Positions 26,764 to 41,230 of a stretch of 64,000 bases of DNA are shown one piece after another; position 1 is the stretch's first letter; every line of letters begins with the position of its first letter. Below the pieces are notes generated by a model. The model saw only the letters and a program-made list of their open reading frames with translations, did not search any database and was not told the DNA's origin. This stretch comes from an uncultured Clostridia bacterium (GTDB lineage: Bacteria > Bacillota > Clostridia > Oscillospirales > Ruminococcaceae), in NCBI GenBank assembly GCA_947629905.1, contig CANRFM010000003.1, forward strand, positions 62,001-126,000. The letters are read 5' to 3'. The translations under genes and the position numbers were made by a program.

Positions 26764-26793
26764 ATTGACAAATAATTACAGGTATGTTATAAT
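26764..26793 (+). promoter_or_regulatory. sigma-A promoter of the SbcD-like/SMC/BrxL/CbxX operon
   Basis: TTGACA (26764-26769), an 18 nt spacer and TATAAT (26788-26793), 49 bp before the first ATG. No other promoter of this quality was noticed within the operon. Confidence 0.82.
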
Positions 26794-26841: not shown

Positions 26842-27813
26842 ATGAAACTGCTGTTGTGTGCGGATGTTCGTCTGGGGGCTGTCTGTGCTGAAAATCTGGG
26901 AGCTGCGCTCTCCCACAAATGGCAGGCTGTCAGAACGGAAAAACTGACAAATCTGATCGATAAAGCAGCGAAGAACAATGCCGGGTATATTGCTTTGTTC
27001 GGGCAGATGTTCGGGCAGAAGCGGGTGCCGGAATCTGTGATCGACTGCCTGTTTCAGGCGGTGAGGGAAGATGCACATATGCAGGTGCTGACCTTTTTGT
27101 CTGCAGACGAATATGACCGGATCACTTACCGGAATGACATTCCGGAAAATCTGCATTTGCTGTGTACGCAGACGGCAGACAGCTTTTGTGATGAACAGAT
27201 CACTGTGCATATGGACGGCGATGCTGTGGAATTACAGCTTTCCGGCAATGCCCCTGTGCGGGTCGAAAAAAATACCGGCGGCAGATTTGTGCTGCATGGC
27301 ATGGGGGAAGAACAGGTCATTCCCTCTTTTGAGCCGGTCGGATTTGAAGATGCAGCAGGTGCTGTGACAGGGTATTCCGTGCTGGAATGGACGGAGCATA
27401 CCTTGGTCGGTATCCGCACGGCAGAAGATCAGACGTATGCATTTCAGTCTGTGGAACTGAAAATTCTCCCGGAAGATGACCAGAAAGAGATCCGCAGGAA
27501 AATACATACAGCTGTGGCAAAAATCGATGCTGACACATTTCTCCGTATCACGATCGTCGGGCGTTCTGCATTCGGGCTTACGCTGAATGGGGATGCTTTG
27601 GCTGCTCTGCTGCAGGACAAGATCTTTTATGTGGAGGTGTATGACAACACGAGTATGGACATTGATGAGGCAGATTTTGAAAACGACATCTCCCTGCGGA
27701 GCGAATTCGTGCGGCTTGCCTTGCAGGAGGATTCTCTGAGCGAATCCGAGCGCAGCAGGATCATCAGCTACGGCTGGAATGCTTTGCATGCCGAGGGGGT
27801 GACTGCTGAATGA
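26842..27813 (+). CDS. SbcD/YhaO-like protein with a degenerate nuclease site
   Basis: The 323 residues follow the SbcD/YhaO layout: a calcineurin-like domain opening MKLLLCADVRLGA, then a capping region and a C-terminal part (YVEVYDNTSMDIDE, LRSEFVRLAL) like that which binds SbcC. The metal ligands are missing. D-x-H is D8-V-R10, and the GD motif is G54-Q55 with Gly58 where the next acidic residue belongs. The usual GNHD and GHxH motifs are not found. It should therefore be a non-catalytic partner. The ATG at 26842 follows AAGGGGGAA. It is first in the operon and overlaps the SMC gene as ATGA, the usual sbcD-sbcC coupling. Confidence 0.75.
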   Translation: MKLLLCADVRLGAVCAENLGAALSHKWQAVRTEKLTNLIDKAAKNNAGYIALFGQMFGQKRVPESVIDCLFQAVREDAHMQVLTFLSADEYDRITYRNDIPENLHLLCTQTADSFCDEQITVHMDGDAVELQLSGNAPVRVEKNTGGRFVLHGMGEEQVIPSFEPVGFEDAAGAVTGYSVLEWTEHTLVGIRTAEDQTYAFQSVELKILPEDDQKEIRRKIHTAVAKIDADTFLRITIVGRSAFGLTLNGDALAALLQDKIFYVEVYDNTSMDIDEADFENDISLRSEFVRLALQEDSLSESERSRIISYGWNALHAEGVTAE

Positions 27814-30800
27814 AACTGATCAGCCTGCATATTGACAATTTCGGCTGTCTGCATGACTATGACTACGATTTTGAGGACGGTCTGAATGTTGTCCTGCACG
27901 ATAACGGATGGGGCAAAACAACGATGGCAGCCTTTCTGAAAGCTATGTTGTATGGCTTTGATACCAAGAGAAGCAAGGACATCACGGAAAATGTGAGAAA
28001 AAGATACCTCCCATGGCAGGGCGGCAATTACGGCGGTACGCTGGATTTTGAAGCCGGGGATGTGCGGTATCGGATCTCCCGGACATTCGGCGAAACTCCA
28101 CGGTTTGACAAGGCGAAGATCGCTGCGCTGGATGCGGGCGTTACAGCGAAGATCAGCCCGGACAGGATCGGGGAGACGCTGTTTCAGCTCGATGCCAGCG
28201 CATTTCAGAGAAGTGTCTTTGTCGATCAGAACGGCTTGTCTATTGCCGGGGCTGCAAGCAGTATTCACACCAGACTGAATGCCTTGGTCAGTCAGGCAAA
28301 TGATGTGGCAGCGTATGACGGTGCAGTCGCAGCGCTGACGGAGGAGATCAAGACATACGAAAAAACCGGCGGCAGGGGCAAGCTTGGTGAAATTACCAGA
28401 CAGATCGCTGCATCAGAGCAGAAGCGTGAACAGATCGAAGCCGAAATTGCACAGCAGGACAGCGCCAGAGAACGCATTTCACAGCTCGATAAGCGGATCA
28501 CGGACATAGATACTGAACTGGATAAAAAGAAACAGCAGCTTGATGAGGTTTCCGGGGAAGCGAAAAAACAGGAAGCTGCCAGAAAGCTGACAGAGGAACT
28601 GGACAAACAGATCGTAGAATTACGGCAGCAGATGGATGGCATTCAGGCGGAACTGGGCGGGCATATCCCGACCTCTGATGAGATCGAACAGGTCAGACGG
28701 CAGAAACAGTCGGCTGCAAGCATTGCACAGCAGCTTTCTGAATTGCAGCAGAATTGTGAAACGATAGAAGCCGATCTTGCGGTGCTGGAGGAAAAATATC
28801 ATGCCATGCTTCCGGCAGCGGCAGAACTGGACGAGATACAGAGCATTTACGGAGAGCTGCAGGGCATTCGTTCTTCGGAAACGGAAGTGACCGAAAGTGC
28901 AGAAGAAGAACCGAAAGGTTACACGCTGCTGCAGGCGATTGCGGACAGCGATCCGGAAGCTGTCAGCCGGTTACAGAGCACTGTTGAACATCAGGAAACG
29001 TTGCAGCAGCTGATCCGGGACTGCGAAGCTGCGGAACAGAAATGGCAGAGCGGGCAGGCAGCATGGAACGACAAGAAAAAACGGTATACCGGATATGCCG
29101 AAGAAGTTGCCCGTTTACAGGCGGAACTGGATGAGAAAAAGCTGTATGCAGCGGAAACTGTCGATCCGGTCATGCAGGGACTGGAAGAACTGCAAAAGAA
29201 AGAGCAAGCTGCCGCACAGTGCGTTTCCGAACAGGAAGCAGCTCTCCGGCATGGCAAAGCAGACTGGGCGGACAAACAACGCCGTTATGCCGCTTTGCAG
29301 GCGGAGCTTGACAGCATTCAGCCGGAAGCAGAACAGAGAAGCCGGTTCTCTCCGGAGAAGGTCAAACCTGTCATAGCGGCTTTAGAGGAATTGCAGAAGC
29401 AGCAGCAATTGGTCGATGTGCGTGCTGAGGAACTTTTGGGGGTCGCTCTGACAGAGGAGCAGGAGGCTTTGCTTGCTGCACATACGGGAGATCTGCCGGA
29501 CACGGCGGAGGGCAGTGCCCTTTTGAAAAAACTCCGCAGTATCATGCAAAAGACCTCGGACATACAGGGCTTGGAAGCCAGAAAAGCCGGAGAACAGAGC
29601 AAGGCGGACAGCTTACAGGCATCAGCCGATCAGTTGGGGACGATCGCAGATACGGATGACAGCGCAGCAGAACAGCCGAAGAAAACGCCCGGCACTGCCC
29701 TGATCATGATCGGTGCTGTATTGACTGTCATCGGTGTGGTGCTGTCCTTTGTTGTCACGCCGTTCATGGCGGTTGCTGCGGTGATTGGCGTGATCCTGAT
29801 CATTTCAGGGGTTGTCGGGAATAAAGGCTATCAATCAAAGCTTCAGGCATATGAGGCATATCAGGCAGCCGCTTCACAGCGAGAGGAAAACCGGAAGAAA
29901 AAAGAAGATCTGCAGACACAGCTGAAAGCCGCACAAGCTGTCGTTGCCGATTTGCAAGGGCAGATCGATGCCTTACAGCAGGGAATACAGAAAGAACAGG
30001 CAGAAGTTGACGCATGGGCAGATACATGGCTGCCCGGTCAGACGGTGACAGAAAGTGCTGTTTCAGCTTTTTTTGAACAGGCAGAACAGGTCGCCAAACT
30101 CCGGAAACAGAAACAGGACACGGCAGAAAAGGCAGACTTTGTGGCAGAAAAGACGGCTTATATTGACAGCGAGCGGCAAAAGGCAGATTCAGCTTTCCCG
30201 GAGATCGCCGGAAACAGTATCGAGGAAGCACTGCGCTTGCTCCGTTCGGGTGAAACAGAGTATCAGCTGTATGACAGCCGGCTGCATACTGCACAGAAAG
30301 CCCTTGATGGCTTCTTTGCTGAAACGGGGCTGACAGCGGAGCAGCTCCGTGCCGGGGAGCTGCCTGAACTTGCGGAAAGGCAGGCTGAACTGGACTGTGC
30401 CCATGCAGCACTGAAAGAATGTGCCATGCAGCGTAAGGCATTTGATGAGACATACCCGGAAATAGCAGGGCTTTCACGGGAAGAAGCACTGCAAAGTCTG
30501 CGGGCAAAGGCAAGCGACTATCGTGTGACAGCCGGACAGCTGCAAAAGGCAGAGCGTGATCTTCAAAAATGCGTGGATGAATCCGGTCTGACACAGGAGC
30601 AGCTTGCCGCCGAGGAAGCGCCCGGTCTTGCTGCATGGAAAAGCAGGTATGACAAACTTTCAGAGGAACTCACACGTTCCGTGGATGCTGCCAATGCAGC
30701 TTTGCAGCCGTTGGATCTGAATACAGATGTTTCACACATCGTACAGGCAGTCCGGGAAGCGGAACAGCTGCTGAACGAATACCAGCAGCATTCCGAAAAG

Positions 30801-32288
30801 CTGAAAGACCGTGCCGCACGATATGCCCGGAAACAGCAGCAGATCGGGGAGCTACAGCAGAAATTGGACGGCAGGCTTGCCCTTTTGCAGGGGAACTATG
30901 CGGATGCCGCTGTTCCGGAAAGGCTGAAACTGGTTCGGGAGGATGTCAGCAGTGCCGCCTCCCTGAAGGCAAAACTTGCGGATGCGGAACAGGACAGAAA
31001 ACGGCAGGAAGAAAAGCGGAAAGCCGCAGAAAATGCGGTAGAAGCCTTTCAGGCGGCGTTCGGGAAGTTTACACCGGAGACGGCGGATGTTCTGGCAGAA
31101 ATTCATGCCAAGGTATCCCGCTATGCGGAACTGGATGCTTCCGTCCGGCAGCTTGCCAAACAGAAGGCAAATGCAGCTCCCACGCCGTCCGCTCCCGGTG
31201 CAGAGGAAACTGCCCTCCGGGAGGCAGTTGCACAGCTCGAAGCACGCAGGGACGACCTGCGGGATGAGTACACGCATAAGAGTGACTTTATCCGGCAGGC
31301 AGACCATTCACTGGAGCAGTACCCGGATGTGGTACAGGAAATTCATGATCTGTATGAGCAGAAGCAGAAAGCGCAGAACACGGTGACGATGCTGAAACGC
31401 ACCATTCAGCTGCTCACACAGGCGAAAGAAAATCTGGCAAACCGGTATCTGAGCAAGGTGGAAAATCTGTTCAATCAATATATGCACATCTGGCTGAATA
31501 ATGATGCTGTAAAAGGCATTTTAGACATGGAATTCAATGTCCTGATCGAGGAGCAAGACAAACAGCACGTGGCACAGGGGTACAGTACTGGCTATTGTGA
31601 CATGATCGATCTCTGTATGCGGCTGGCTTTGGTGGATACTTTGTTTGAGAAGGAACAGCCTTTCCTGATCATGGATGATCCGTTTGTCAATCTTGATGCG
31701 GAACGTCTGAATACGGCGCTGGAACTGCTTCACGTCATGGCAGCGGAAAAGCAGATCATTTACTTTGTGTGTCATCCCATCCGTGCTGTGGAGGGGGATG
31801 ATGCTTCCGTTTCGAGAGAGGCATTCGTCAAGTTGGCAGAAGCCGCAAGGAAGACGATCGAGGAACGCAGGACGAGCGGAACGGAACGCCGGAAACCTGT
31901 CCGCAAGTTGCCGAAAGAAATGTACAGGGTGGTCGATACAGGGACGGGTGCAGCGATCAAACCTGCCCGGATGAATTATACGATCACCAACAGTATTTTC
32001 AGCATGAACTTTGTGCCGGCTGAAACAGGTGACAGGAAAGACCATGCCTATGAACTGTTCTTTATTGATGCGGTCGGTCATGTCCTGAATGACAGACAGC
32101 TGATAGAGGTACGGGACGGGAAACTTTCCACGGATCGGGTGCAGTTCTGCCTGAATACTCGTGACGATAGCGGGGAACAGTTTGAACTGATGATCCGTGA
32201 AAGCGGTCAGGCAGACTATGAAGTCGTTGCCCGGATACCGTTTCAGGCAAAACTGGCATTTGCGGGCACATTCAGCTTTGATTTTTAA
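27810..32288 (+). CDS. SbcC/YhaN-like SMC ATPase with internal membrane hairpin and C-terminal extension
   Basis: A 1,492-residue Rad50/SbcC-type protein. Walker A is HDNGWGKTT (30-38). Long Gln/Glu/Ala-rich coiled coils fill the middle. Two adjacent hydrophobic segments at about 628-672 resemble the membrane hairpin of YhaN-like proteins. Near the C-terminus an atypical signature, STGYCDMIDL, precedes Walker B LIMDDPFVNLD (about 1285-1295). A further 165 or so residues, not part of a usual SbcC head, end in LAFAGTFSFDF and look beta-rich. It is coupled to the SbcD-like gene. Likely role: DNA-end or DNA-structure sensing at the membrane, which is inference. Confidence 0.82.
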   Translation: MKLISLHIDNFGCLHDYDYDFEDGLNVVLHDNGWGKTTMAAFLKAMLYGFDTKRSKDITENVRKRYLPWQGGNYGGTLDFEAGDVRYRISRTFGETPRFDKAKIAALDAGVTAKISPDRIGETLFQLDASAFQRSVFVDQNGLSIAGAASSIHTRLNALVSQANDVAAYDGAVAALTEEIKTYEKTGGRGKLGEITRQIAASEQKREQIEAEIAQQDSARERISQLDKRITDIDTELDKKKQQLDEVSGEAKKQEAARKLTEELDKQIVELRQQMDGIQAELGGHIPTSDEIEQVRRQKQSAASIAQQLSELQQNCETIEADLAVLEEKYHAMLPAAAELDEIQSIYGELQGIRSSETEVTESAEEEPKGYTLLQAIADSDPEAVSRLQSTVEHQETLQQLIRDCEAAEQKWQSGQAAWNDKKKRYTGYAEEVARLQAELDEKKLYAAETVDPVMQGLEELQKKEQAAAQCVSEQEAALRHGKADWADKQRRYAALQAELDSIQPEAEQRSRFSPEKVKPVIAALEELQKQQQLVDVRAEELLGVALTEEQEALLAAHTGDLPDTAEGSALLKKLRSIMQKTSDIQGLEARKAGEQSKADSLQASADQLGTIADTDDSAAEQPKKTPGTALIMIGAVLTVIGVVLSFVVTPFMAVAAVIGVILIISGVVGNKGYQSKLQAYEAYQAAASQREENRKKKEDLQTQLKAAQAVVADLQGQIDALQQGIQKEQAEVDAWADTWLPGQTVTESAVSAFFEQAEQVAKLRKQKQDTAEKADFVAEKTAYIDSERQKADSAFPEIAGNSIEEALRLLRSGETEYQLYDSRLHTAQKALDGFFAETGLTAEQLRAGELPELAERQAELDCAHAALKECAMQRKAFDETYPEIAGLSREEALQSLRAKASDYRVTAGQLQKAERDLQKCVDESGLTQEQLAAEEAPGLAAWKSRYDKLSEELTRSVDAANAALQPLDLNTDVSHIVQAVREAEQLLNEYQQHSEKLKDRAARYARKQQQIGELQQKLDGRLALLQGNYADAAVPERLKLVREDVSSAASLKAKLADAEQDRKRQEEKRKAAENAVEAFQAAFGKFTPETADVLAEIHAKVSRYAELDASVRQLAKQKANAAPTPSAPGAEETALREAVAQLEARRDDLRDEYTHKSDFIRQADHSLEQYPDVVQEIHDLYEQKQKAQNTVTMLKRTIQLLTQAKENLANRYLSKVENLFNQYMHIWLNNDAVKGILDMEFNVLIEEQDKQHVAQGYSTGYCDMIDLCMRLALVDTLFEKEQPFLIMDDPFVNLDAERLNTALELLHVMAAEKQIIYFVCHPIRAVEGDDASVSREAFVKLAEAARKTIEERRTSGTERRKPVRKLPKEMYRVVDTGTGAAIKPARMNYTITNSIFSMNFVPAETGDRKDHAYELFFIDAVGHVLNDRQLIEVRDGKLSTDRVQFCLNTRDDSGEQFELMIRESGQADYEVVARIPFQAKLAFAGTFSFDF

Positions 32289-32303
32289 GAGGGGGTAGCA
32301 CTG

Positions 32304-34424
32304 GTGACGGAATTGGATGAGAAAGTGCTGGAAAATTTTCCGGGAAAGGTCGTCCGGAAAGACTTGACGGCACTGATGAAAAAAGGCGCAAATGTGCCGA
32401 CCTATGTACTGGAATATCTGTTAGGGATGTATTGCGCAACAGATGACGAAGATGACATTCAGGTCGGACTGGAGCGGATCAGACGGATCTTGAGCGAGAA
32501 CTATGTCCGCCCGGATCAGAGTGAGTATGTGAAGTCCAAGATCAAGGAGAACGGGCAGTATACCATCATCGATAAAATTACGGTAGAATTGGACGAACGG
32601 GAAGATAAGTATGTTGCCTATTTTACGAATCTGAACATGGATCCGTTTGAAGTCAGCTCCGACCTTGTTGTACACAATGAAAAGCTCCTGATCGGCGGTA
32701 TCTGGTGCATTGTCAAAATTGAATATGCCGGTCTGAATCAGCAGGAAAAGGAAGAAGTGGAGTTTGAGGAGGACATTTTCGGCAATAAGAAAAAGAAGAA
32801 AAAAGCCCGCAAGACCCGCTCCCGCTATGATTCCCCGTTTGAGATCGCTTCTTTGAAGCCGATACAGATGCCGAATCTTGATCTGGATGAACTGAAAGAC
32901 TGCCGCCAGAACTTCACAAAAGACGAGTGGATCGCATTGATGCTCCGCTCCGCAGGCTATGAGCCGGATGCCCTGAATGACAAGCAGAAGCTGCACTATC
33001 TGCTCCGGTTTGTTCCGTTCATTCAGAAGAATTATAATCTGGTCGAACTGGGACCCCGTGGAACGGGGAAGTCGCACGTCTACAGTGAATTGTCCCCGTA
33101 TTCTATTTTGATGAGCAGCGGACATACTACTGTTTCCAATATGTTTTATAACATGGGTTCCCGGAAGATCGGGCTTGTCGGGAACTGGGACTGCATTGCT
33201 TTTGATGAAGTCAGCGGTATCACGCAGTCGTCCGGGGATATGATACAGACCATGAAAAATTACATGGCAAACGGTTCTTTTGCCCGTGGCACGGAGTCAA
33301 TCAGCTCGGATGCCTCGATCGCCTTTGAGGGGAATACGTTCCGGAGTGTTGCGGATATGATGCGGACGACCAATTTGTTTGAGCCGTTCCCGGAAGAATT
33401 CAATAACGACTCCGCCTTTTTCGACCGCATTCATGCCTATCTGCCCGGCTGGGAGACCCCGAAGCTGAGAGCAAATCTGTTTACGCAGGGCTATGGGCTG
33501 ATCTCCGACTGCTTTTCGGAGTTCTGCCATGCGATGCGGAAGTATGATTTTACGAACGCATTCGGCAGGTATTTTGCCCTGAACGATAACTACAACACCC
33601 GTGATGATACTGCCGTCCGGAGAACTTTTTCGGGCATGGCAAAGCTGATCTATCCGGATGAGGAAATGACCAAAGAGGAATGCCGTGAACTGCTGGAGTA
33701 CAGCATTGAGTGCAGGAGACGGGTAAAAGAACAGCTTCGCAAGATGAATCCGGCAGAATTCAGTGACGTTGCGTTGGGGTATATAGATCTGGACACGGAA
33801 GAGGAATTTATTGTTGACCTGCCCGAAGTGGCAGACGGTACACTGGTATCGGATGTTCTGGAACAGCCCGGTTATGTGTACGCTGTCGGGCGGTCGGTAG
33901 ATGACAAGGTCGGTGTGTATCGTCTGGAGAATAAGCTGCTGACCGGGACGGGGAAATTCAGCTTCAAGAATGTGGAAGGGCTTTCCCGTTCCCCGAAAGC
34001 TGTCCGTGACAGCATTACGGCTGCATTCAATTATTTCAGCGAAAATGTCCATTACATGGTCTCCGCTGCCTATGAACGCTATGATTACAGTATGTATTTC
34101 AACGACCTGCAAAACAGAAATGTCAGCGATGAAGTTTCGGTCGCTGAGGTCGTAGGGCTGTTCTCGGCACTGGCAAACCGTGCTGTGATGCCGTCCCTTG
34201 TGATCGTGGGCAGAGTCGTCATGTCCGGCAGTACGATGCCGATCACAACGGAACTGGATGAAATTTTCGTGACTGCCGCAAATGCCGGTGCAAAGAAGAT
34301 CATGCTTCCGGCAGACAGCAGAGAAAAGTATGAAGCGATCGGCAAAGACCTGAAAAACGAGATGGATGTGATTTTCTACACATCCCCTCTCGATGCCGCC
34401 AAAAAAGCACTTGGGGTGGGATAA
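32304..34424 (+). CDS. brxL: BrxL-type AAA+ / Lon-like protein
   Basis: The 706 residues match the BrxL (Lon-related, BREX) family along their length, opening VLENFPGKVVRKDLT. Walker A is GPRGTGKSH (about 250-258) and Walker B is CIAFDE, followed by the conserved GDMIQTMKNYM and GSFARG segments. A basic insert, KKKKKKARKTR, precedes the ATPase core. The C-terminal region is Lon-protease-like, but where Lon has its catalytic Lys this protein has acidic residues (TTELDEIFVTAANAG). Peptidase activity is therefore unlikely. A GTG start follows GAGGGGG. BrxL is a phage-restriction ATPase in BREX, yet no pglX, pglZ, brxA, brxB or brxC gene is present here. Confidence 0.88.
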   Translation: MTELDEKVLENFPGKVVRKDLTALMKKGANVPTYVLEYLLGMYCATDDEDDIQVGLERIRRILSENYVRPDQSEYVKSKIKENGQYTIIDKITVELDEREDKYVAYFTNLNMDPFEVSSDLVVHNEKLLIGGIWCIVKIEYAGLNQQEKEEVEFEEDIFGNKKKKKKARKTRSRYDSPFEIASLKPIQMPNLDLDELKDCRQNFTKDEWIALMLRSAGYEPDALNDKQKLHYLLRFVPFIQKNYNLVELGPRGTGKSHVYSELSPYSILMSSGHTTVSNMFYNMGSRKIGLVGNWDCIAFDEVSGITQSSGDMIQTMKNYMANGSFARGTESISSDASIAFEGNTFRSVADMMRTTNLFEPFPEEFNNDSAFFDRIHAYLPGWETPKLRANLFTQGYGLISDCFSEFCHAMRKYDFTNAFGRYFALNDNYNTRDDTAVRRTFSGMAKLIYPDEEMTKEECRELLEYSIECRRRVKEQLRKMNPAEFSDVALGYIDLDTEEEFIVDLPEVADGTLVSDVLEQPGYVYAVGRSVDDKVGVYRLENKLLTGTGKFSFKNVEGLSRSPKAVRDSITAAFNYFSENVHYMVSAAYERYDYSMYFNDLQNRNVSDEVSVAEVVGLFSALANRAVMPSLVIVGRVVMSGSTMPITTELDEIFVTAANAGAKKIMLPADSREKYEAIGKDLKNEMDVIFYTSPLDAAKKALGVG

Positions 34425-34427
34425 GAC

Positions 34428-37151
34428 ATGACTGAATATCAGTGCATATGCTGCGGAAAAACAAAAGACAGCGAAAAGATCTGCTGCTGTCCGGACTGCG
34501 GTTACAAGATGTATCCGACCCTGTTTGACAGAAAAAAAGTCCTTGCCGATGAGATATGCAGCTTTCTGCAGCAGCTGAAACTGAGCAAATTCAAGCAGGA
34601 GGATGTCCGGTATTTCCGCAGGGAGCTTGTACCCGTGAAAGGCGACACGCCCGACGGGAAGCAGAGCTATATTACGATTACAAAGGCGGAGGATGACAGC
34701 CGTTTTCCGGATTTCAAGACCATTCAGGGATATGTCTGCGCAGCGAAGAAAACGGAAGAATTTTTTGAACGCCTGCACAGATCCCTGAACGAACTGCATA
34801 CACATATGCATGAACCGTATCAGAATGTGTATGAAGTAGGTTTCAGCAATGTAACAGAACAGGTAGCCGAACTGGATGCGGTGCTAAAAAAAGCCCTTGC
34901 GGAACTGGAACTGCCGTGCGAAATACCTGCGATCCGATTCCCGAAACTCATTCTGCACTACAGCGAAACACCGAATGATGCCTTATCAGATGCAGCAGAT
35001 CAGCTGTTTGAAATGCTGACAGAACTGACGGAGAAGATCAAAAAGTTCATCAAGATTAACAATGTCTACGGAAATACGTATCAGAAGAAATGCGAACCTT
35101 CCCGGAAGTTTGCCGATACAGAGGACGAACGGGCGCAGCTGGACAGTATCCTTGCCGTGGTGAAAAAGACACTTATCAAGAAGTATGAGGTAGATATTTT
35201 TTCAGACGGTTCCGAGGAACTGCAGGAAATGCTGAAAGTCCTCTGGACGGCAGTCTATGCGGTCATGACATTGCCGGTTCTGGAAAAGCAGTATAGCTAC
35301 CGCTTTGCAAATGGGGATGTCGTCATTGGCGATGGCTTTATTGCAAAGGTGATACAGGCGGTTTCTGTGCGGTATGAAAATTTACCGTTGCCGGATGCGG
35401 CATACTTTGCCTCTGAAAATGAGGATGACCTGTTTGATCTGTATAACAGGATGATCGAACTGGACAAATTCGGGTTGATGGGCTTGAACCGGGATGTCTT
35501 GACAAAGATAGGCGAAAGTGAAAGGGAACTGAACCGCCTGATCGGTCTGACGAGTATCAAGGAAAGCGTGAAGAAGATCAAAGCCTATGCGCTTGCCAAC
35601 CGGGGCAGCAAAGACCTGAATCTGCATATGTGCTTTTTCGGAAATCCCGGCACTGGCAAAACGGAAGTCGCACGGCTGATCGCCGGTATCCTGCACGAAA
35701 ACGGCATTCTCCCGACGAAGAAGCTGATCGAGACCGACCGCAGCGGACTGGTGGCAGGCTATGTGGGACAGACTGCGATCAAAACGGCAGAAGTGATCGA
35801 CGAGGCGATGGGCGGTGTGTTGTTCATAGACGAAGCCTATTCGCTGATCCAAAGCGATTACAGCGGCGATTACGGGCATGAAGCTGTATCTACGCTGATC
35901 AAGGCAATGGAAGACCACAGGGGGGAATTCTGCGTCATTCTGGCAGGCTATAAGAACCCCATGCAGGAAATGCTTGCAGCGAATCAGGGCTTTCAGTCCC
36001 GCATTCAGTTTACGATCGAATTCCCGAATTATCACCGGGAGGACCTTGCACAGATCGTTGGTTTGATGCTGAAACGAAAAGGCTATACGGCAAGCGATGC
36101 AGCACAGGAACGAATGCTGGAAATTACCGACTATACGAGGAAAAAGCCCGATTTTGCCAATGCCCGTGAAATGCGCAATATCCTCGAACACGTCATTATG
36201 TGCCAGAACCTGCGCTGTGCGGGCATGGAGGATAAGACCATCGAGGTCGTTGACGTAAATACTTATATTAAGGAAAGCAGCATTCCCATTCCGACAAGCG
36301 GTGACGGGGCTGTTAAAAAGATCCTCACAGCCGAAGACGAACTGGATGCACTGGTAGGGCTTCACGCCGTCAAGAGGATGGTTAAAAAGATCAAGGCATA
36401 TGCCCGGCATAATAAAAATGACCCCGATGTCAGTCTGCATATGTGCTTTTTAGGAAATCCCGGCACGGGGAAAACGGAAGTCGCAAGAATTTTATCCCGC
36501 ATTCTCTACGAAGCCGGTGTCCTGCCCGAAGCCAAACTCACCGAAACGGATGCACAGGGGCTGATCAGCCGGTATGCCGGTGATACTGCCTCCAAAGCCC
36601 TTGCCAAGATCAACGATGCCATGGGCGGTCTGCTGTTTATCGATGAAGCCTACAGCCTGACAAGCGGTGATCGGGATCTTTCCGGCTACGGCGAGGAAGC
36701 GATCGCTGTCCTGCTGAAACAAATGGAAGACAAACGAGGGCAGTTTTGCGTGGTACTCGCAGGCTACAAGACCGAAATGGAACAGATGATCGGAACAAAT
36801 CCGGGGCTTGCCTCAAGGGTGCAGTTTACGCTTGCATTTCCCGACTACACGAGAGAAGAACTGTCTGAGATCGCACTGCGGTTCCTGCGGGCGAAACATT
36901 ATGACATAGCGGAAGATGCGCTTGCCTTGGTACTGGATGTCACGGAGTACTACAGGGCAAGACCGGATTTTGCGAATGCACGGACGGTGCGCAATATTCT
37001 CGAACAGGTCATCATGAACCAGAATCTGCGCATGGACGAAGCGGGCAGCAATGATACGACGCTCCTGTGCTGCGATGTGCAGGACTACATAGACGATGAG
37101 GGCATTGACCTGAATGGCAGATCGGCTAAACCCCATAAAATCGGATTTTAA
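34428..37151 (+). CDS. Zinc-ribbon protein with tandem CbxX/CfqX-type AAA+ domains
   Basis: The 907 residues start with a zinc-ribbon (Cys pairs within 6-24, CICCGK and CCPDCG). A helical region of about 340 residues without recognised motifs follows. Two CbxX-family AAA+ modules come next: Walker A GNPGTGKTEVAR at about 405 and 675, each followed by VLFIDEAYSL or LLFIDEAYSL and by sensor/arginine segments (SRIQFT, SRVQFT). CbxX-type ATPases remodel partner proteins, as in Rubisco activases and the EccA proteins of type VII secretion. The gene starts 3 bp after brxL and is last in the operon. Its probable substrate is another component of the same system. Confidence 0.85.
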   Translation: MTEYQCICCGKTKDSEKICCCPDCGYKMYPTLFDRKKVLADEICSFLQQLKLSKFKQEDVRYFRRELVPVKGDTPDGKQSYITITKAEDDSRFPDFKTIQGYVCAAKKTEEFFERLHRSLNELHTHMHEPYQNVYEVGFSNVTEQVAELDAVLKKALAELELPCEIPAIRFPKLILHYSETPNDALSDAADQLFEMLTELTEKIKKFIKINNVYGNTYQKKCEPSRKFADTEDERAQLDSILAVVKKTLIKKYEVDIFSDGSEELQEMLKVLWTAVYAVMTLPVLEKQYSYRFANGDVVIGDGFIAKVIQAVSVRYENLPLPDAAYFASENEDDLFDLYNRMIELDKFGLMGLNRDVLTKIGESERELNRLIGLTSIKESVKKIKAYALANRGSKDLNLHMCFFGNPGTGKTEVARLIAGILHENGILPTKKLIETDRSGLVAGYVGQTAIKTAEVIDEAMGGVLFIDEAYSLIQSDYSGDYGHEAVSTLIKAMEDHRGEFCVILAGYKNPMQEMLAANQGFQSRIQFTIEFPNYHREDLAQIVGLMLKRKGYTASDAAQERMLEITDYTRKKPDFANAREMRNILEHVIMCQNLRCAGMEDKTIEVVDVNTYIKESSIPIPTSGDGAVKKILTAEDELDALVGLHAVKRMVKKIKAYARHNKNDPDVSLHMCFLGNPGTGKTEVARILSRILYEAGVLPEAKLTETDAQGLISRYAGDTASKALAKINDAMGGLLFIDEAYSLTSGDRDLSGYGEEAIAVLLKQMEDKRGQFCVVLAGYKTEMEQMIGTNPGLASRVQFTLAFPDYTREELSEIALRFLRAKHYDIAEDALALVLDVTEYYRARPDFANARTVRNILEQVIMNQNLRMDEAGSNDTTLLCCDVQDYIDDEGIDLNGRSAKPHKIGF

Positions 37152-37236: not shown

Positions 37237-37261
37237 GAGTAAAATTTTTTTGAAAAAACAC

Positions 37262-37290
37262 TTGACAAACGTTTCACTATGTGATATAAT
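37262..37290 (+). promoter_or_regulatory. Strong promoter of the tRNA-Leu pair, with A/T-rich UP-like element
   Basis: TTGACA (37262-37267), 17 nt, TATAAT (37285-37290). The preceding stretch 37241-37268, including the -35 box, is identical to 41181-41208 in front of infC. Confidence 0.9.
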
Positions 37291-37328: not shown

Positions 37329-37415
37329 GCGGATATGGCGGAATTGGCAGACGCGCTAGCTTCAGGTGCTAGTCGGGGCAACCCGGTGAAGGTTCAAGTC
37401 CTTTTATCCGCACCA
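37329..37415 (+). tRNA. tRNA-Leu (anticodon CAG), CCA encoded
   Basis: The acceptor stem GCGGATA pairs with TATCCGC. The D-arm contains GGCGGAATTGGCAGACGC. The anticodon stem CTAGC/GCTAG closes the loop TTCAGGT, giving anticodon CAG. The long variable arm typical of leucine tRNAs (CGGGGCAACCCGG) and the T-arm GGTTCAAGTCC follow. The discriminator is A, with CCA encoded at 37413-37415. A 9 bp inverted repeat flanks the gene. Confidence 0.97.
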
Positions 37416-37458: not shown

Positions 37459-37542
37459 GCGGATATGGCGGAATTGGCAGACGCGCTAGCTTCAGGTGCT
37501 AGTCGGGGCAACCCGGTGAAGGTTCAAGTCCTTTTATCCGCA
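37459..37542 (+). tRNA. tRNA-Leu (anticodon CAG), second copy without encoded CCA
   Basis: All 84 bases of the tRNA body are identical to the copy 130 bp upstream, including the CAG anticodon loop. After discriminator A the sequence reads CTA instead of CCA, so CCA must be added by the nucleotidyltransferase. It is probably cotranscribed with the first copy and ended by the terminator at 37626. Confidence 0.97.
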
Positions 37543-37625
37543 CTAAACTGTACGAATTTGAACACTGCGGCGATTGTATTTTGGTGTGAAAGTTGCCGCA
37601 GCTGCTTGCAAAATCGTAAATAAGG

Positions 37626-37709: not shown

Positions 37710-38486
37710 CTACTTTGGCACATCCGGCTGCATTGTCCGCTGAATGGAATAGTAGTATTCCAGTGCCGGGAATTTCCGTTCCATCTGGTAACAAAGAAAT
37801 TCTTCCGCAAACTGGTACAGTGGCTTGCGGGAGCGCTCCGAAACAGCGAAGTTGAATATTTTCTTAGGCTCAGACAGCACAATAAACCGTATCGCCTGCA
37901 ATGTACCGGCAGTCATCGAAATAAACCCAGTTTCGTCCTCCGGCAATGTAATGCAGTCCTCACAGCAGAAATAGCCGTCAGGAACGGAAAAAACCAGCCG
38001 CTCCGGCAGGTATTCTCCGCAGCTGCGGCACATGATCACATCCGGCATAAAACCGAGCAGGGAAGCGATACGCAGTTCAAAGATCGCCTTGATCTTTGCT
38101 TCTGTCGCCTTTTGTTCCGAAAGCATATACAGGCAGTTCAGTGCAAGCTGTAAGATCTCCGGTGCACCCGAACGGGGCAGAACCGCATACCGGATCACTT
38201 GTGAAAAATAGGAAGCCAGCGCAATGGCAGAAACGGAGCTGCGCAGACCGTAAAACACAGAAAGGGGTGTGATGCTGTTGAGGATCCGCACCCCATTGCG
38301 CTTATCGTTCAGGCACAGCTCCGAATAGGTGAATAGCTGCGTGGCACTGCCGCTCTTGCTGTTCAGCTTTCCTGCGCCTTTCACAAGAACCTCCAGAACA
38401 CCGTACTCAGCCGTCAGAACGTCGATGAATCTGTCCTGCTCGCCGAGCGTCCTCTGCATCAGCACAAGCCCTTTCACTGTCAGCAT
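37710..38486 (-). CDS. recO: DNA repair protein RecO
   Basis: RecO loads RecA onto SSB-coated single-stranded DNA together with RecR and anneals strands. The 258 residues have an N-terminal OB-fold (about 1-80, TVKGLVLMQRTLGEQDRF) and a helical C-terminal domain with a zinc site: CRSCG (about 154-158) and CCEDC (about 174-178). AAAGGAATGG precedes the ATG. It is the last gene of phoH-ybeY-era-yqzL-recO and overlaps the small yqzL-like frame by 80 bp. Confidence 0.95.
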   Translation of the reverse strand: MLTVKGLVLMQRTLGEQDRFIDVLTAEYGVLEVLVKGAGKLNSKSGSATQLFTYSELCLNDKRNGVRILNSITPLSVFYGLRSSVSAIALASYFSQVIRYAVLPRSGAPEILQLALNCLYMLSEQKATEAKIKAIFELRIASLLGFMPDVIMCRSCGEYLPERLVFSVPDGYFCCEDCITLPEDETGFISMTAGTLQAIRFIVLSEPKKIFNFAVSERSRKPLYQFAEEFLCYQMERKFPALEYYYSIQRTMQPDVPK

Positions 38487-41097: not shown

Positions 41098-41201
41098 TAT
41101 ATTTTTGCCAGAACACATACAGAATTTTGTGCATTTTACAAAAGGAACTTTGTCTATTTTAGCACTTGAGAAAAAAGAAAAAAATTTTTTTGAAAAAACA
41201 C

Positions 41202-41230
41202 TTGACAAGATACGGAAAAACGGTTATAAT
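41202..41230 (+). promoter_or_regulatory. sigma-A promoter of infC-rpmI-rplT
   Basis: TTGACA (41202-41207), 17 nt, TATAAT (41225-41230), with an A/T-rich upstream element identical to that of the tRNA-Leu promoter. Confidence 0.93.

Follow-up and report, generated by a model that had tools for sequence, protein, structure and literature searches.

A gut Clostridia bacterium appears to have moved BrxL from its BREX locus into an operon with a membrane SMC protein carrying a PglZ-type tail

A four-gene operon in an uncultured Clostridia bacterium of the Ruminococcaceae, a gut bacterium, appears to hold a BrxL protein that was moved out of the bacteriophage exclusion (BREX) locus of its genome and placed beside a membrane SMC protein carrying a PglZ-type tail. 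The operon occupies positions 26842 to 37151 of the + strand of a 64,000-nucleotide stretch (GenBank assembly GCA_947629905.1, contig CANRFM010000003.1, positions 62,001 to 126,000), the whole of which is referred to here as the window and its genome as G000. This arrangement suggests that a second sensor has been connected to a single defense effector. On balance, we consider it probable that the four genes form an effector module of BREX origin, which provides BrxL in trans and couples it to that second sensor, and the sequences are consistent with the whole being a split, rewired BREX rather than a BREX-free system. The elements of the operon are as follows.

26765..26793, + strand: promoter, TTGACA-17-TATAAT, extended -10 (preceded by TG), 12/12 match
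26842..27813, + strand: gene 1, nuclease-dead SbcD/Mre11-like protein, 323 aa; orthologues in loci L134, L140, and L223
27810..32288, + strand: gene 2, membrane SMC (Rad50/YhaN-like ATPase), 1492 aa; 4-bp overlap with gene 1
29685..29831, + strand: transmembrane hairpin in the SMC coiled coil, residues ~626 to 674, from hydropathy; hydrophobic stretch in 4/4 SMCs compared
31926..32285, + strand: PglZ-type C-terminal immunoglobulin-like (Ig-like) tail of the SMC, residues ~1373 to 1492, from homology to PglZ
32304..34424, + strand: gene 3, brxL, 706 aa, GTG start; 15-bp gap after the SMC gene
34428..37151, + strand: gene 4, double CbxX/SpoVK-type AAA+ ATPase with an N-terminal Cys-rich (zinc-ribbon-like) motif, 907 aa; 3-bp gap

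The original prediction for this DNA, made from the sequence alone, had placed four genes in this order and with this spacing behind one promoter. This was borne out: all four open reading frames (ORFs) are open, and the only promoter sites matching at 12 of 12 positions between 26600 and 37460 are that of the operon and one before a pair of tRNA-Leu genes. The proposed identities of the products (a noncatalytic SbcD, an SMC with a membrane hairpin, BrxL, and a double CbxX ATPase) likewise stood, on domain, motif, hydropathy, and profile evidence. An alternative upstream TTG start would lengthen gene 1 to 331 aa.

A BREX locus without its own brxL

Gene 3 possesses the BrxL_N, BrxL_ATPase, and Lon_C domains and is a Type 1 BrxL (TIGR02653, 808 bits against a cutoff of 628; PADLOC BrxL, E value of 3e-255) with an intact P-loop (GPRGTGKS) and Walker B motif (FDEVSG). 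It is the only BrxL found in G000. The view that it is an orphan in a BREX-independent module was not supported, since it nests among BrxL proteins of cis BREX loci (see below) and since BREX genes are present on another contig, C21. At the start of C21, at the contig edge, lies a DUF559 gene, followed by the C-terminal part of pglX (pglX-C; L213:446-1333), a full-length pglZ (857 aa; PF08665, E value of 1e-62; PADLOC PglZ, E value of 5e-273), and then no brxL; the N-terminal part of PglX would fall past the contig end. Directly after pglZ lies a 72-aa ORF that is 52% identical to the stretch preceding brxL in the Ruminococcus callidus locus L136 (L136:9704-9919), which is in frame with brxL and would therefore be a small gene of its own or else extend BrxL at the N terminus. 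This ORF is followed by codons for FCTPLEAAKLALGVD, corresponding to approximately the 14 last codons of brxL, which match the C-terminal residues TPLEAAKIALGVD of R. callidus BrxL at 12 of 13 positions. When 39,918 14-residue windows were scanned in six frames over 20 kb, this was the sole place with at least 8 of 14 matches, the next best having 6. Together, the 72-aa ORF and the brxL end codons indicate that brxL was once part of this BREX locus and has been lost from it.

The Type 1 BREX genes of G000 do not share one locus: brxL is on contig C3, and pglX-C and pglZ are on C21 with the brxL scar. The earlier statement that no PglX, PglZ, or BrxC accompanies the operon was correct for the window, where none was matched (whole-genome searches in the case of PglZ and BrxC; no search aimed at BrxA or BrxB was made in G000, and the scans against protein families took in the four operon ORFs of the window alone), but not for the genome, given pglZ and pglX-C on C21. 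A complete BREX locus elsewhere that accounts for brxL had been named as grounds for refuting the original prediction, and this was seen only in part: the C21 locus is BREX and lacks brxL, but its 5' half is off the contig end and no BrxC was matched. A PglX-like ORF on contig C4 (L222:12234-14951, 905 aa, type IIG-like) was considered as the missing N-terminal part of PglX and rejected, as its match is partial and it stands alone, with tRNA genes rather than pglX-C or pglZ on its flanks.

The same operon beside a second BREX core

An alignment scan of a species collection for BrxL gave at least 595 stretches and at least 578 confirmed relatives, of which the best 80 were kept. Among these 80, seven BrxL proteins (loci L133 to L139) were 67 to 83% identical in the best segment, and the next reached at most 54%. 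Five of the seven (L133, L135, L136, L137, and L138) follow pglZ in BREX loci. The BrxL of L139 (genome G760) is truncated (448 aa) and stands beside a truncated brxC (344 aa); on a contig other than that of these BREX remnants, G760 has a dead sbcD-SMC pair alone, in open frames. The BrxL of L134, from the Clostridia metagenome-assembled genome (MAG) G755, is 76% identical to that of the window and lies in the same four-gene operon in the same order (dead sbcD, SMC, brxL, AAA+). In L140, from the Coriobacteriia MAG Candidatus Aphodovivens, the order is pglZ, dead sbcD, SMC, brxL, with BrxL 52% identical. The co-occurrence that the original prediction proposed to look for was seen, with gene order kept, in a single further genome, but the set is rare. 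Exactly one BrxL_ATPase match was present in each of nine genomes (G000 and those of L133 to L140); PglZ was present in eight of these and not found in G760, and BrxC was present in eight, as a fragment in G760, and not found in G000.

Contig C4 of G755 carries full-length brxA, brxB, brxC, pglX (in two parts), and pglZ, and the cis brxL after pglZ is reduced to approximately its first 100 and last 210 residues, with the AAA+ core missing. The only BrxL_ATPase match of this genome is in the four-gene operon, on its contig C3. The broken cis brxL is 81% identical to L076 and at most 48% identical to the BrxL of the window over the same parts. In quick trees without bootstrap, the BrxL proteins of the window and L134 were sisters (39 rows; Shimodaira-Hasegawa-like approximate likelihood ratio test, 81) inside the clade L133 to L139, so that the BrxL of the operon nests among those of cis BREX loci; the PglZ of G000 paired with that of R. 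callidus (38 rows; 100) and the PglZ of G755 with L074 (100), in a different clade. By the trees and the kinship of the broken cis brxL, one operon type is combined with two different BREX cores, each of which has a broken cis brxL.

A PglZ-type domain at the C terminus of the SMC protein

Over its final ~115 residues, the SMC protein shares homology with the Ig-like domain at the C terminus of PglZ, and the domain is C-terminal in both proteins. By blastp, the tail matched five of five PglZ proteins (E values of 2e-9 to 4e-5), and profile-profile alignment to PglZ with hhalign gave 98.6% (E value of 8.8e-16). A profile of four SMC tails, run over 391 genomes of the class, matched 18 places in 17 genomes, G000 included, at E values of ≤0.01. 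Twelve of the 17 places outside the SMC of the window were identified as PglZ by phmmer and were matched at the C-terminal end; the remaining five (E values of 2e-4 to 6e-3) received no such assignment. In 11 of the 12 tail-matched PglZ cases, brxL lay within 1.5 kb, the exception being L257.

Pairwise comparison of SMC proteins revealed how the tail is conserved. Between the window and L134, where brxL adjoins, the tail is 59% identical, the heads 64 and 62%, and the coils 29 and 31%; for L140, where brxL also adjoins, the values are 36% for the tail, 44 and 38% for the heads, and 22 and 20% for the coils. In contrast, L223 has no adjoining brxL, and its SMC, which lacks the last residues of the tail, is 26% identical in the tail, 48 and 55% in the heads, and 21 and 25% in the coils. 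Conservation of the tail therefore seems to follow BrxL, being near head level with brxL adjoining and far lower without it.

None of 10 ordinary SMC relatives carries the tail. The SMC was matched at E values of ≤1e-10 in 26 of 396 genomes of the family, its own included; in this search, and in the order search for the AAA+ protein below, the two best candidates of most genomes were scored. The listed matches besides its own covered at most residues 1 to 424 and 964 to 1342, in open frames of 226 to 1364 aa, and none of those listed extended into the tail. Among the open-licence papers listed on BrxL and BREX, no title or abstract reported a PglZ-tailed SMC.

A possible second route to BrxL

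A mechanism can be proposed for such a module. With the coiled-coil hairpin as its membrane anchor, the complex of SMC and dead SbcD would bind incoming or odd DNA structures through its Rad50-like heads. Its PglZ-type tail would dock BrxL as the tail of PglZ would, and the docked BrxL ring would be loaded on the SMC-bound DNA. The same BrxL pool could also serve the remaining methylation-based BREX complex. The least certain step is that of the double CbxX AAA+ ATPase, which would probably act on BrxL or on the SMC by remodeling or resetting it, and the whole module would defend against phage or plasmid DNA. The earlier suggestion that the SMC pair is coupled to BrxL at the membrane is supported in its direction, with the PglZ-type tail as a concrete, sequence-level hint of physical contact. 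More tentatively, a membrane SMC may have acquired the PglZ Ig-like domain as a portable dock for BrxL, giving one BrxL pool two sensors (methylation-based BREX and a membrane SMC for DNA structure); gain of the operon would then make the cis brxL dispensable, and it would have been deleted independently in two lineages.

Several observations weigh against a BrxL-docking tail in a split BREX. When the PDB was searched with a profile of SMC tails only, no PglZ entry was matched at E values of ≤1, and the one match was at chance level (E value of 0.19); a profile including PglZ rows does match the PglZ entries. The contrast in tail conservation consists of three pairwise comparisons only. Among the best 80 of 578 BrxL relatives, all four genes are together in two genomes, and in one of these, the SMC gene of L134 (L134:5918-9922) has an in-frame TAG at codon 403, reflecting a pseudogene, a sequencing error, or recoding. 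The three other genomes with a tailed SMC were reached through BrxL, and their co-occurrence with BREX is therefore biased. No BrxC was matched in G000, an 89.65% complete genome in which the BREX locus is cut by the contig end, which would leave an active BREX core there unproven. Finally, a ~7-Å map described in PMC13326643 implies that PglZ Ig-like domains touch and that PglZ dimerizes, which points to a partner other than BrxL.

The low-resolution dimer also favors an alternative that we regard as unlikely but worth serious attention, in which the tail pairs with the PglZ Ig-like domain or another BREX subunit, making the SMC an added sensor or scaffold on BrxB-BrxC-PglZ with brxL merely coexpressed. 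In line with this, L140 has the domain in PglZ as well as in the SMC. However, between G000 and G755 the SMC tail is 59% identical and BrxL 76%, against 30% for the PglZ tails, and the PglZ proteins of the two belong to different clades; moreover, tail conservation falls in L223, which has no adjoining brxL.

Somewhat more doubtful still is a stand-alone defense module that captured brxL, the BREX remnants being in decay and irrelevant. The lack of a BrxC match in G000 would fit this, as would G760, where BrxC and BrxL are truncated and the sbcD-SMC pair stands alone with open frames, and deletion of the cis brxL could itself be decay. Against it, G755 keeps brxA, brxB, brxC, the two-part pglX, and pglZ, only brxL being gutted, and in G000 pglZ is full length, with the missing half of the locus past the contig end of an incomplete genome.

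The SMC/SbcD pair and the double AAA+ ATPase

The SMC protein has ABC-type heads of the Rad50/SMC type, with the Walker B motif FLIMDDP. No Pfam family was found above cutoff in gene 1, and a 10-row alignment profile that includes it matches Mre11/SbcD structures (E value of 6e-13). All four metallophosphoesterase motifs of SbcCD are altered or absent in gene 1: DxH is DxR, GD[LI]FD is GQMFG, GNHD is SADE, and the GHxH segment is absent. The metal-binding motifs are also gone in its three nearest homologues (L134, L223, and L140), and the C-terminal half is conserved with SbcD-like partners. A dead-SbcD profile matched 16 of 398 genomes of the phylum besides G000; of five inspected, four keep GDLFD, the fifth ORF (L368) being uninterpretable, and none of the five stretches had a tail or brxL match.

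The operon resembles SbcC/SbcD and YhaN/YhaO, which we take to be the names for such pairs, in its SMC-phosphoesterase gene pair, its similar heads, and its transmembrane hairpin, hydrophobic stretches of this type being present in nine of nine ordinary SMC relatives checked (597 to 1022 aa). It differs in the loss of the phosphoesterase motifs, the longer coils (1492 aa), and the added PglZ tail. A literature search for YhaN/YhaO gave nothing on their function.

The heads and partner of the SbcCD/Rad50-Mre11 type would suit a membrane complex for DNA maintenance or repair rather than defense, but we consider this improbable. Gene 1 has lost the nuclease motifs, both the tail and BrxL belong to BREX, and the operon is patchy, the SMC being matched in none of the seven other same-genus genomes (two best candidates scored in each). 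In addition, a WYL-domain gene comes after the AAA+ gene in both L133 and L134, and homology to G766, the nearest same-genus relative found (RecO, 88%), stops at window position 37722, the 3' end of recO. Beyond recO, G766 has an 824-aa ORF, presumably MutS2-like, where the window has the tRNA-Leu genes and the operon.

Gene 4 encodes two CbxX/SpoVK-type AAA domains with Walker motifs intact in both, the best model being SpoVK/CbbX. Among the matches listed in an order search (394 genomes), none besides its own starts before residue 322. An AAA+ gene lies directly 3' of brxL in L133, L134, and L138. In L136, brxL is followed by a 106-aa N-terminal AAA+ piece (L136:12127-12474), whose stop codon lies 27 bases from the end of the contig. 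In L138, the double CbxX AAA+ protein after brxL is part of a fusion with trypsin-like protease and macro domains (L138:7708-11376, 1222 aa).

That the four genes are unrelated neighbors behind one promoter is hardly credible: the rarity of the set would fit chance, but the same genes occur in the same order in L134, the tail homology ties the SMC to BREX, and subsets recur by brxL (sbcD-SMC-brxL in L140; brxL-AAA+ in L133, L138, and partly L136).

Among plasmids, no match covering 80% of the query was found for the SMC (5 records) or the AAA+ protein (271 records), and the best BrxL match (53%) lies in a complete cis BREX of Collinsella. Viral contigs gave no relative of BrxL in a single-protein scan and 19 relatives, 40 to 49% identical, in an alignment scan; with the AAA+ alignment there were 77, all matched within the AAA modules (none starting before residue 319 of 907), and the dead-SbcD alignment gave no relative.

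Neighboring genes and variable slots

Directly 3' of the operon, two tRNA-Leu(CAG) genes (37329 to 37415 and 37459 to 37543), identical over 85 bases, are preceded by the second 12/12 promoter (37262 to 37290). An identical 28-base direct repeat (37241 to 37268 and 41181 to 41208, ~3.9 kb apart) brackets a stretch whose genes we take to be tRNA-Leu, recO, era, ybeY, and phoH.

In the BREX loci below, PglX is split, with differing cargo between its N- and C-terminal parts.

L213:79-1333 (G000) and L135:5922-7419: DUF559 nuclease-like
L136:5507-7122: phosphoribosyltransferase-like
L133:4507-7376: DUF2971 and RhuM
L214:13186-14618: HEPN-like

The slot after brxL also varies, holding a 2187-aa DUF4011 helicase with an MTES_1575 nuclease domain in L137 (L137:12429-18992) and a small ABC-type ATPase with mad3/AriA-like matches in L135 (L135:12172-13083).

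Discussion

Lamassu and Wadjet are SMC-based immune systems. The operon is similar to them in having an SMC-type ATPase as a proposed DNA sensor with an effector and in weak LmuB and JetC profile matches (LmuB against the SMC, E value of 5e-13, the best stretch being the N-terminal 94 residues). Unlike them, it has no LmuA, kleisin, or JetD match among its four proteins, and the putative effector is BrxL. Its AAA+ modules weakly match IetA and NF042959, and the AAA+-trypsin-macro fusion of L138 recalls the ATPase-protease pairing of IetAS; the protein of the window differs from IetAS and CbxX-type defense ATPases in its two AAA modules, its Cys-rich N terminus, and the absence of a protease.

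The closest known system is Type 1 BREX (brxA, brxB, brxC, pglX, pglZ, and brxL), of which BrxL is a member; G000 keeps pglX-C and pglZ, and the SMC carries a PglZ domain. The arrangement in G000 differs in that brxL lies apart, sharing an operon with the genes of the dead SbcD, the SMC, and the double CbxX protein, in that the cis brxL is deleted, and in that BrxC was not matched in G000. PMC12839542 describes a C-terminal beta-sandwich of PglZ that is replaced by something else in Type 2 BREX and missing from Type 3, and states that BrxL is confined to Types 1 and 4, from which we infer that the PglZ domain and BrxL go together. The main text of that paper mentions SMC once, for PARIS-like ATPases, and does not mention SbcD, CbxX, CbbX, or Mre11. 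BrxL copurifies with BrxB, BrxC, PglX, and PglZ, the last of which has a C-terminal beta-barrel, according to PMC12205998, and forms rings around DNA, according to PMC10164562. Among the open-licence papers listed, no title or abstract described BrxL or BREX with a set of SMC, dead SbcD, and CbxX.

How BrxL is recruited and what the C-terminal domain of PglZ does are questions to which a tailed SMC beside brxL offers a route by binding tests. If the proposed reading is true, it would link SMC-type sensors and BREX, branches of immunity so far treated apart. "Orphan" BREX genes can then belong to split systems, which locus-based defense surveys would miss.

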